A stretch of DNA of 64,000 nt. Origin: an uncultured Chlorobiaceae bacterium. Lineage in GTDB: Bacteria; Bacteroidota; Chlorobiia; Chlorobiales; Chlorobiaceae. Each line of letters begins with the position of its first letter. The first letter of the stretch is position 1. This document shows positions 41,866 to 45,933 of this stretch, piece after piece. Both the position numbers and the translations under genes were made by a program. The notes beneath the pieces are model-generated. The model was not told the DNA's origin. It was given only the letters and a program-made list of their open reading frames with translations, and did no database searches. The stretch spans positions 62,001 through 126,000 of the forward strand of contig CAJAJL010000067.1 in assembly GCA_903940125.1 (NCBI GenBank), given 5' to 3'.

Positions 41866-41902
41866 AACCGGCCCTTTGTTCACCCCGGTACATGGGCCGG
41901 TT
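41866..41902 (+). terminator. Terminator-like hairpin after sdhB
   Basis: AACCGGCCC (41866-41874) / GGGCCGGTT (41894-41902); no long T tract. Confidence 0.6.
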
Positions 41903-42327
41903 TCGATGGCATTGAAAGTCTCACTCCAAAAAAGCAATATTCTCCGTCGAACACACTTTGTAAAACACGCAGTTAATGCTGCGGCATCGAAAGTCGCCCT
42001 TGCCCAGGACTTTCAGCTTGGAGAAAAAAGCGGATTATCCTCAGAGGTATTTCTGTCCGGAGTGCTTGCATTTCGGTGAATCAATAGTGTTATTGGTGTA
42101 AAAATAAATCATAATAGCGAAATATATTTGTATATTTAAGCGCCAGTAAGCATCTTTGAACTTCTCCATGACAAGATACAGCGCTCTCTTCATACAGCTG
42201 ACTGCCTCAGGAAGAACAAAGCTTTTTTGTGATGTTCTGAGCAGGAGGACAAAGAGCAGTTTGCATTACGGCAGGCCGTGTCGGAGAGCCGGCCTCTCCT
42301 TTTAATGAAGGTTGACCTGGGAGGTAA

Positions 42328-44403
42328 ATGAGCTATACGACGACAAGGGCTTTGGAGCTTTTACGGATCGGTTCTGGTTATCCCGAGGCGGTTTTCCGTG
42401 ACAGCCAAGAGGATGCAATTCGTTACATCGTTGAAGGCCGGGGGCGATTGCTGATCGTCCAGAAGACAGGCTGGGGTAAGAGCTTTATCTATTTTATTGC
42501 CACCAGGTTTCTTCGTGAAGAAAGCAAAGGGCCGTCTCTACTGATTTCACCTTTGCTTGCCTTAATGCGAAACCAGATTGAGGCAGCTGAACGTATGGGA
42601 GTGCGTGCCGCTACGATTAACTCAGACAATCCGGATGATTGGATTGATGTTGAAGCAAGTATTGATCGCAATGAGATTGACATTCTGATCATTTCCCCTG
42701 AACGGCTTGCGAATGAACGGTTTCGTCAAAATGTTCTGGCTGGAATTGCTGCTCAGATTTCGATGCTGGTAATTGATGAAGCGCACTGTATTTCTGACTG
42801 GGGTCACGACTTTCGCCCTCACTATCGATTGCTGGAGCGGATTGTTAAAACTTTACCGCCAAACCTCCGACTTCTGGCAACTACAGCCACTGCAAACAAT
42901 CGAGTAATGAAGGATCTCGCTGAAGTTCTTGGGCCGAATCTGGAGGTATTACGCGGTGATCTGAATCGTCCTTCACTGACCCTGCAAACCATTTTTTTAC
43001 CTGATCAAGCCCAGCGCCTTGCCTGGCTGGCAGAACAGCTCGCGACTCTTCATGGCCATGGAATTATCTATACGCTCACCGTACGTGATGCAAACATGGT
43101 TGCAAGCTGGCTGAAAAGTCGTGGTTTGGGTGTTGAAGCCTATACAGGCGAAACTGGTGATCGCCGGCCAGAGTTTGAGCAGGCACTGCTTCATAATCGA
43201 GTAAAAGCTCTTGTAGCGACTTCCGCACTCGGAATGGGTTTCGATAAGCCGGATCTGGCATTTGTGATTCATTATCAGATGCCTGGATCGGTTGTCGCTT
43301 ACTATCAGCAGGTTGGGCGGGCTGGTCGTGCTCTGGAATCTGCATACGGTGTTTTGCTCAGTGGTAAAGAAGAGGCAGATATCACTGATTGGTTTATCAA
43401 TAGCGCTTTTCCGACTCGACAGGAAGTAGACGATTTTATTAATACGCTTGAGAATGAGCCTGCCGGGTTGTCGGTACCCGAACTTCTGGGGAAGGTGAAT
43501 TTAACTCAGGGACGTATCAGAAAAATTATTGATTTGCTCTCTTTGGAATCACCTGCACCTGTAGCCAGGCAAGGGAGTAAATGGCAATTGACATCAGCCA
43601 GGCTTGGTGAAGGTTTTTGGGAACGTGCGGATCGGCTTACCTCGTTACGTCGTGATGAACAACGACAAATGCAGGATTATCTCAAATTGCCATTTGCTGA
43701 ACACATGGGGTTTCTTATTCAGGCACTTGATGGCGATCCGAACTCTGTTATTTTTCCGTTATTGCCACCGTTGCCGATAACCGTTGATGAAGGTCTTGTT
43801 CGGGAGGCGGTCGCTTTTTTGCGTCGCTCCAGTTTGCCGATAGAACCGAGACTTCAGTGGCCTGCCGGTGGTATGCCGCAATATCAACTGAAAGGAAAAA
43901 TCTCTTCAGATCTCCAGGCTCAATCCGGCAAAGCACTTTGCATCTGGGGTGATGCCGGATGGGGAGGACTCGTAAGACAAGGCAAGTACAATGACAACTT
44001 TTATGCTGACGCTTTGGTTAATGCTTGCGTTACCATGATTCAGCAATGGAATCCGGAACCAGCACCGAAGTGGGTAACTTGTGTTCCATCGTTGCGTAAC
44101 CCTGATCTCGTTCCTGATTTTGCGCAGCGTCTTGCTGAAGCACTGAACTTGCCATTCCACATGGTGCTTGCAAGGACAGACAATCGGCCGGAGCAGAAAA
44201 CTATGGCAAACAGTACACAACAGGCACGCAACATTGATGGATCACTCGCAGTTATTGTACCGACACTCCCTGAAGGTGCAGTTTTTCTGGTTGATGATAT
44301 GGTTGGTTCTCGCTGGACATTGACGGTATCGGCATGGCTTTTGAGACAAAATGGAAGAAGCGAGGTTTGGCCTGTAGTACTTGCCCAATCGGGATATGAA
44401 TAA
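42328..44403 (+). CDS. RecQ-family DNA helicase with C-terminal ComF-like phosphoribosyltransferase domain
   Basis: Helicase: QKTGWGKS Walker [35 protein letters not shown]-terminus: [25 protein letters not shown]...[19 protein letters not shown]...[15 protein letters not shown] resembles ComF/PRTase. Confidence 0.9.
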
Positions 44404-44405
44404 CG

Positions 44406-45404
44406 ATGCAGAAACTCTCTGTGAATACAAAAGCCATTCTTCTGCTGATGGCACCATTAATTGCTGGCCGTGGCAGCTCTGAGTCAGACATTCTGACTCC
44501 GGGAGAGTACAATCGGCTGGCTCGTCACCTCCATGCAATGCAGTGTGAACCAGCTGATCTATTATCTCAGGAATCGGGAAATTTGTATCGCGCATGCCAG
44601 GACGTGGTTGACGCAAAACGCATGCAAAGCCTGCTTGGGCGTGGTTTTTTGCTGAGCCAGGTTGTTGAGCATTGGCAGGCACGTGCTGTCTGGGTGGTCA
44701 GCCGTGCGGATGCTGCATATCCCCGGCGTATCAAGTCGCGATTGCGGGACAGTGCACCTGCTTTGCTTTACGGCTGCGGAGATGTCAATGTATTGGAAAC
44801 TGGTGGACTTGCTGTTGTTGGATCGCGGCATGTGGATAATGAGCTGATTGACTATACGATGGCAGCTGGTCAACTTGCTGCTCGTGCAGGCAGGACTGTA
44901 ATTTCCGGGGGAGCAAAGGGTATCGACCAGGCTGCCATGCGTGGTGCGCTTGAAGCTGGCGGCAAGGTCATTGGAGTTCTTGCTGAACGCCTTGAAAAGA
45001 GCGCAATGAACAGTGAACATCGCAATCAGATTATCGATGGCCGGTTGGTTCTGATTTCGCCTTATGACCCAGGTGCAGGTTTTAATGTTGGTCATGCTAT
45101 GCAGCGAAATAAATTGATTTACGCTTTGGGTGATGCCTCGTTGGTTGTAAGTTCTGATATCAATAAGGGTGGAACATGGGCAGGTGCAACTGAACAACTT
45201 GACAAGCTCAAGCTGGTTCCTGTCTATGTGCGATCAACGGGATTTTCTTCAAAAGGTCTCGATGCCTTGCGTTCGAAGGGAGCTTTACCCTGGCCCGAAC
45301 CTCATTCAGCTGATGCTTTTGATGCAGTTTTTGAAAACTCTTTTTCACCGATTCCTGAAAAGAAACAGGATAGTATTGGTTTATTTTTAGATGATGAAGA
45401 GTGA
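44406..45404 (+). CDS. DprA/SMF-family protein
   Basis: [58 protein letters not shown] are DprA Rossmann motifs; 2 bp after the helicase gene. Confidence 0.9.
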
Positions 45405-45519
45405 TCGAAACAATACAAGAAAAGGATAGTATTGGTTATCTTTGTAGGGGAATGTGTGTCTGTTTTTGAGAATCGTTTGATTCATTTATGAAAATAATCA
45501 CAGTTGGAGGACGACAACC

Positions 45520-45933
45520 ATGAAAAAAAACACAGGACTCTGGATTGATCACAAAGAAGCTGTTCTGGTTTCAATTGAAGGCGACGAAACTGTTGTTCAG
45601 CGGCTTGAATCGGGAGCTGAAAGCCACCATAAACCATCTGGCGGCTGGAAATCAGGAGGAACTAATGTTGCTCAGAGCGTCTCGAATGAGCATGTTGATG
45701 AAGAACGTCGAAAACACCAGTATCATGCGTTTTATCAAAAGGTGATGGAGCTGCTGGGCGATTCAGCTAAAGTTGCGCTTTTCGGACCCGGTGAGGCAAA
45801 AATCGAGTTAGCCAAAGAGATCGGAAAGGCAGCTGAGTTGCACAAAAAGGAAGTTACCGTTGAGGCTTGTGAGCGGTTGACAGAAAATCAGCTTGTTGCA
45901 AAAGTTAAAACGTTTTTTTCTGTTCAAAAGTGA
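45520..45933 (+). CDS. Small eRF1/Pelota domain 3-like (translational machinery) family protein
   Basis: GLWIDHKEAVLVSI N-terminus; FYQKVMELLGDSAKVALFGPGEAKIELAKEI and VEACERLTENQLVAKVKTFF C-terminus. Confidence 0.65.
   Translation: MKKNTGLWIDHKEAVLVSIEGDETVVQRLESGAESHHKPSGGWKSGGTNVAQSVSNEHVDEERRKHQYHAFYQKVMELLGDSAKVALFGPGEAKIELAKEIGKAAELHKKEVTVEACERLTENQLVAKVKTFFSVQK

Follow-up and report, generated by a model that had tools for sequence, protein, structure and literature searches.

Genes and features of the locus

The window (the whole 64,000-nt stretch of DNA analysed, from an uncultured Chlorobiaceae bacterium) carries on its plus strand two adjacent ORFs of 691 and 332 aa, both starting with ATG and separated by a 2-bp gap (Table 1). 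The first-pass annotation had described them as a RecQ helicase with a ComF/phosphoribosyltransferase (PRTase)-like C-terminus and a DprA/SMF-like gene starting 2 bp past its stop, and had considered both genes to be almost certainly co-transcribed. ORF coordinates, profile matches and predicted folds (see below) agree with this description, and the 2-bp gap makes co-transcription probable.

A low-coding gap of 469 bp lies upstream of the pair. One flanking gene is of the fumarate reductase/succinate dehydrogenase iron-sulfur type (Pfam), and another, named from sequence resemblance only, is of the CBS-domain/HlyC type. A 137-aa gene (45520-45933), without any Pfam or PADLOC match, is conserved beside the insertion in those members of the genus that were examined. 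The 14-bp sequence GGATAGTATTGGTT occurs as a direct repeat at positions 45368-45381, in the psyrA 3′ end, and 45425-45438, in the flank, 57 bp apart, and was looked at as a possible insertion scar. A GC-rich hairpin followed by TTTT (42283-42299) lies 29-45 bp upstream of the start of the first gene; it was considered as an attenuator and discarded, as it is common only to the closest relative (G071) and absent from the other Chlorobiaceae copies.

Table 1. Features of the psyrTA locus, in window coordinates
Feature	Position	Strand	Evidence
psyrT/rqlH, RecQ-like helicase-PRTase toxin, 691 aa	42328..44403	+	PADLOC PsyrT E 6.4e-265, residues 1-688
RecQ-type helicase core, residues 22-346, Walker A TGWGKS, DEAH	42391..43365	+	TIGR00614, PDB RecQ 4q47
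C-terminal PRTase domain (predicted fold), residues 480-691	43765..44400	+	AlphaFold2, Foldseek, profile matches
PRPP-binding loop; 656/D657 conserved, G660	44281..44319	+	Alignment of 80 toxins
psyrA/rqlI, DprA-like antitoxin, 332 aa	44406..45404	+	PADLOC PsyrA E 7.2e-122
DprA/SMF Rossmann (SLOG) domain of PsyrA, residues 91-291	44676..45278	+	PF02481 E 1.4e-36; fold match
QDSIGLF, putative beta-clamp-binding-like short motif, PsyrA tail	45366..45386	+	Tail pattern counts
Segment that relatives lack at this locus (module and upstream leader)	41882..45411	.	Flank alignment to G005

The gene pair corresponds to PsyrTA/RqlHI

When both proteins were compared with PADLOC-DB, the larger one was matched by the PsyrT model and the smaller one, over residues 1-314, by the PsyrA model (Table 1). 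A RecQ-like SF2 core, a C-terminal PRTase with a PRPP loop, a DprA-like gene directly downstream and a full-length model match, all of them features of PsyrTA, are present at the locus, and we regard it as practically certain that the pair is PsyrTA (RqlH-RqlI). Two other assignments were discarded. The PADLOC models of DpdF, also a helicase, match at E 3e-85 and weaker, mainly on account of the helicase core and well short of the PsyrT score. Housekeeping RecQ and DprA proteins do not fit, since the scores lie under the curated cut-offs for TIGR01389 and TIGR00732 and the genome contains separate homologues of both.

The work on RqlH-RqlI (PMC4670107) describes a RecQ-like helicase that carries a PRTase domain, and a DprA-like interactor encoded downstream, a pair which its authors equate with P. 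syringae PsyrTA. Likewise, in Rousset 2022 (PMC9122126), shosTA, syrTA and rqlHI are grouped as systems with DprA-homologue antitoxins, and Hochhauser 2023 credits Millman 2022 with PsyrTA as a defence system. PsyrTA/RqlHI was described in 2012-2015 and is covered by PADLOC and DefenseFinder. The first-pass annotation had allowed for an architecture described already, which is the case, and its proposal of a toxin-antitoxin or defence module is consistent with the PsyrT and PsyrA matches. The locus is real, intact and an ordinary example of its kind. Taken as a whole, it very probably represents a complete PsyrTA of the abortive-infection type that reached this Chlorobiaceae genome by horizontal transfer and became inserted among housekeeping genes.

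Domains and active site of the toxin

The helicase core, spanning approximately residues 22-346, matches RecQ (TIGR00614, E 9e-65; PDB 4q47, E 9e-52) with its Walker A motif and DEAH box intact; a Pfam search at E<=1 returned neither an RQC nor an HRDC domain. The C-terminus alone gives a weak match to PF00156 (E 0.03, under the curated cut-off), and 58 of 71 aligned homologous domains individually match this family at E<=0.01 (best 1e-8). A profile built on the domain matched PRPP synthetases, HGXPRT and PurF in the PDB. Residues 480-691 were modelled by AlphaFold2 with a mean pLDDT of 94.8 and a pTM of 0.90, and a Foldseek search of the PDB with this model returned H. pylori ComF (7p0h) first and then APRTs, with modest TM-scores of about 0.4-0.5. 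At the level of the predicted structure, a PRTase fold of the ComF/APRT type is hence confirmed.

The PRPP loop was compared with that of the orthologue from E. coli 536, which reads D662-D663-I-V-D666 in a protein of 698 aa, the length of the published F11 RqlH. According to PMC4670107, substitution D663A abolishes RqlH toxicity in E. coli. As D663A falls on the second loop Asp, the residue essential for toxicity corresponds to D657 of the window toxin, which is intact. E. coli K49 and D148 of the helicase also have their counterparts in the conserved Walker A Lys and DEAH Asp of the window protein. The DD pair of the loop is conserved, and its fourth position, usually D, is G: codon 660 (44305-44307), the equivalent of E. 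coli D666, encodes Gly. Among 80 aligned toxins this position is D in 71, G in three (the window included), N in three, one of them from P. syringae, and L, A or E in one each. The usual Asp corresponds to the catalytic Asp of HPRT, and with G in its place activity could be reduced. In the RqlH paper, the position is altered only in a quadruple mutant, DIVD to EVME (PMC4670107). Gly 660 as an inactivating loss was rejected, as D657 is intact and G or N is found at 660 elsewhere too.

The DprA-like partner and its C-terminal tail

The 332-aa protein is DprA-like by its PF02481 match, and its AlphaFold2 model (pLDDT 91.7) has S. pneumoniae DprA (3uqz) and E. coli ShosA (8zva) as nearest structures, which confirms a DprA fold for the modelled protein. 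The tail beyond this fold was inspected with the consensus of bacterial beta-clamp-binding peptides as motif reference. A union of clamp-like patterns occurs in 31 of 73 PsyrA tails, where shuffling leads one to expect 3.5 and never gave more than 11 in 500 rounds. Ten tails contain a strict Q-x-[SDNTE]-[LM]-F pentapeptide, for an expectation of 0.3. These counts overstate significance because the patterns were picked after viewing the tails and the PsyrA sequences are related to one another. The motifs cluster 26-42 residues past residue 292, just beyond the DprA fold. A literature search on clamp-binding-like motifs in PsyrA tails found nothing. Our suggestion, a speculative one which we consider unlikely to be right, is that PsyrA might dock on the sliding clamp through this Q-x-x-L-F-like motif (QDSIGLF here), stationing the toxin-antitoxin complex at replication forks, from where it would be released upon fork or clamp disturbance, e.g. 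phage takeover. If the motif is real, it would lead to a concrete hypothesis, open to experiment, on the cellular location of the complex.

QxxLF, QxxLPF and QxxLxLF forms recur at the same place of the tail across many phyla, and loci with a tail motif include L073, L117, L121, L122, L125, L141, L143, L151 and L152. E. coli PsyrA copies show QDLF or QPELF. In the closest relative, G071, the tail reads EISIGLF, without Gln.

Distribution within the genus

The host MAG (2.98 Mb in 129 contigs, 98.6% complete), whose nearest named relatives are uncultured Chlorobiaceae, was searched by protein and contains a separate dprA homologue (contig C8) and a separate recQ homologue (C124). Among 65 genomes of the same genus, psyrT is present in 12. 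At the window site the module is missing from G005, G033 and G016: their flanks are separated by 173 bp, by about 292 bp and by about 711 bp, respectively, versus 3.5 kb in the window; those of G005 align up to window position 41881 and from 45412 onwards. G005 and G033 each possess a psyrTA of their own on a different contig; the G005 copy is similar to the window only over the two genes and about 60 bp of leader. The first-pass annotation had read the block as an inserted module between housekeeping genes, following a low-coding gap, and would have given up the defence reading had the pair been a core single-copy one with the only dprA of the genome. The pair turned out to be accessory, a second dprA homologue exists, and the inserted-module reading is well founded.

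The genus comprises copies in different states. The full pair is found in the window, G005, G033, G083, G029 and G081. The closest relative, G071 (L181), has the pair at the same site; a 1-bp deletion in toxin codon 582, just ahead of the PRPP loop, shifts the frame there and the antitoxin is intact, which is what would be expected if the toxin is costly. G084 likewise has a frameshifted toxin and an intact antitoxin, and in G085 the toxin is cut off near a contig end. G081 (L193, C29) holds a fragmented remnant of both genes at the window site, its intact pair being a second, distant one elsewhere. The opposite situation occurs in G018 (L156), G028 (L157) and G061 (L184), where psyrT is intact, PRPP loop included, and the adjoining psyrA is frameshifted and truncated, by two different lesions; no other close psyrA was found in G018 and G028, the two that were searched. 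Toxin dN/dS between these two genomes is about 0.14, and pairwise values between the window toxin and its relatives are about 0.1-0.16. As the genomes of the genus are mostly MAGs, single-base lesions could have arisen during assembly, an explanation that does not readily account for the large truncations. Intact toxins beside a broken psyrA suggest that in this lineage the toxin on its own may fail to kill, or that it is silent. Such a natural series in one genus, with intact pairs, broken toxins, lone toxins, empty sites and a remnant, could help to test whether the toxin is always toxic.

Wider spread and mobility

Outside the window we analysed 80 related loci in other genomes, 77 of which leave room downstream of psyrT; psyrA adjoins it in 73 of these. 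The Chlorobiaceae copies belong to a strongly supported clade of 27 in the toxin tree, which includes many phyla, and the nearest toxin outside Chlorobiota is that of Solimonas (77% identity). The tree requires 35 label changes, versus a minimum of 22. Horizontal transfer is the simplest reading of this pattern, bearing in mind that bins can hold foreign contigs. The patchy distribution within the genus, the empty sites and different locations, and the mixing of phyla in the tree point to a mobile accessory module. The toxin had no match among the phage records searched and is rare on plasmids (13 matching records, mostly distant, in the collections searched), and neither an integrase nor a repeat boundary was identified at the insertion site; a mobile carrier was for these reasons discarded. 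With this find, a toxin-antitoxin family that is already known and has been transferred widely gains a green sulfur bacterium among its carriers.

Proposed mechanism and alternative explanations

In E. coli, the PRTase domain of the orthologue is genotoxic, causing SOS induction and filamentation, the DprA-like partner of orthologues binds the toxin directly and restrains it (also Sberro 2013, as cited there), and the helicase domain or its activity restrains the toxin as well, as stated in PMC4670107. By analogy, the module would most likely be used for abortive infection: the helicase may sense abnormal or phage DNA, the toxin-antitoxin complex would loosen and release the PRTase, and this would use PRPP to corrupt nucleotide pools or DNA, so that the cell is stopped. 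We give this course of events about an even chance for the window copy. For ShosT, phosphoribosyl transferase and pyrophosphatase activities disturbing purine metabolism are described in PMC12593503. Activity against phages has been reported for other members of the PsyrTA family. PsyrTA in its native host E. coli NILS69 gave no detectable phage protection, according to PMC12409345; this result and the orphan toxins count against a simple addiction model.

The first-pass annotation had favoured a variant of ShosTA whose PRTase toxin is joined to a helicase, and this did not hold. Both systems combine a PRTase with a DprA homologue, and PsyrA does match two ShosA models (E 1.4e-26 and 2e-7) as well as the 8zva fold; however, the E-value of the PsyrA model is about 95 orders of magnitude lower than that of the better ShosA model, PsyrT leads the toxin models by a wide margin, with no ShosT among the best 25 of 49 PADLOC models, and the toxin is not a stand-alone PRTase: it is a 691-aa helicase fusion, the defining architecture of PsyrT/RqlH. 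We consider a ShosTA variant extremely improbable.

Two further alternatives accept the family and question its role or its state. The pair might be a helicase for DNA repair or genome maintenance with a regulatory DprA partner, toxic only when their balance is upset. Three relatives keep intact toxins without antitoxin, at low dN/dS, and in PMC4670107 more than half of the RqlH-bearing strains are without RqlI, its authors proposing a cooperative role on DNA. Against this, the distribution is accessory and mobile, with empty sites and frequent decay, the genome holds its own recQ and dprA homologues, and an E. coli ST131 copy lies inside a type I restriction-modification operon; we judge a maintenance role to be a minority possibility. 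As for a decayed, inactive copy with a toxin crippled by Gly 660, D prevails at this position and decayed copies are common in the genus, but both ORFs are full length and collinear, the other catalytic residues are kept, pairwise dN/dS to relatives lies in the low range given above, and other intact pairs also have G or N at 660, which leaves inactivity rather improbable. An intact PsyrTA remains our preferred reading.

Comparison with known systems

ShosTA likewise consists of a PRTase toxin and a DprA-like antitoxin, ShosA sharing its fold with PsyrA. The ShosTA toxin lacks a helicase, and the ShosA models fit the window partner far worse than the PsyrA model, so that ShosTA is a cousin and not the family of the window pair. 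RqlH from M. smegmatis (Ordonez 2012, cited in PMC4670107) is, as in the window, a RecQ-like helicase with a C-terminal PRTase; it is described there as having no RqlI partner, whereas the window has PsyrA.

RqlH-RqlI, described by Russell and Mulvey (2015, PMC4670107) from extraintestinal pathogenic E. coli, shows the same helicase-PRTase fusion, with the partner directly downstream in the same order and at a similarly close spacing, the same motifs and similar sizes. Those E. coli copies that were compared fall into the main clade to which the window does not belong, and the one closest to the window, from a plasmid, is 47% identical. E. coli RqlI has 400 aa and a C-terminal HTH domain that the 332-aa window PsyrA lacks; in that same text, this domain is dispensable for RqlH neutralisation. 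In E. coli ST131 (L154), psyrTA sits between the specificity and restriction subunit genes of a type I restriction-modification operon. A few E. coli strains hold a Yersinia-like copy from the clade of the window. That clade also includes PsyrTA of P. syringae (Sberro 2013, known through citing papers such as PMC4670107), a host of a different phylum, whose PsyrA has a longer C-terminal extension; its toxin and antitoxin are 70 and 64% identical to those of the window, with the same gene order and spacing.
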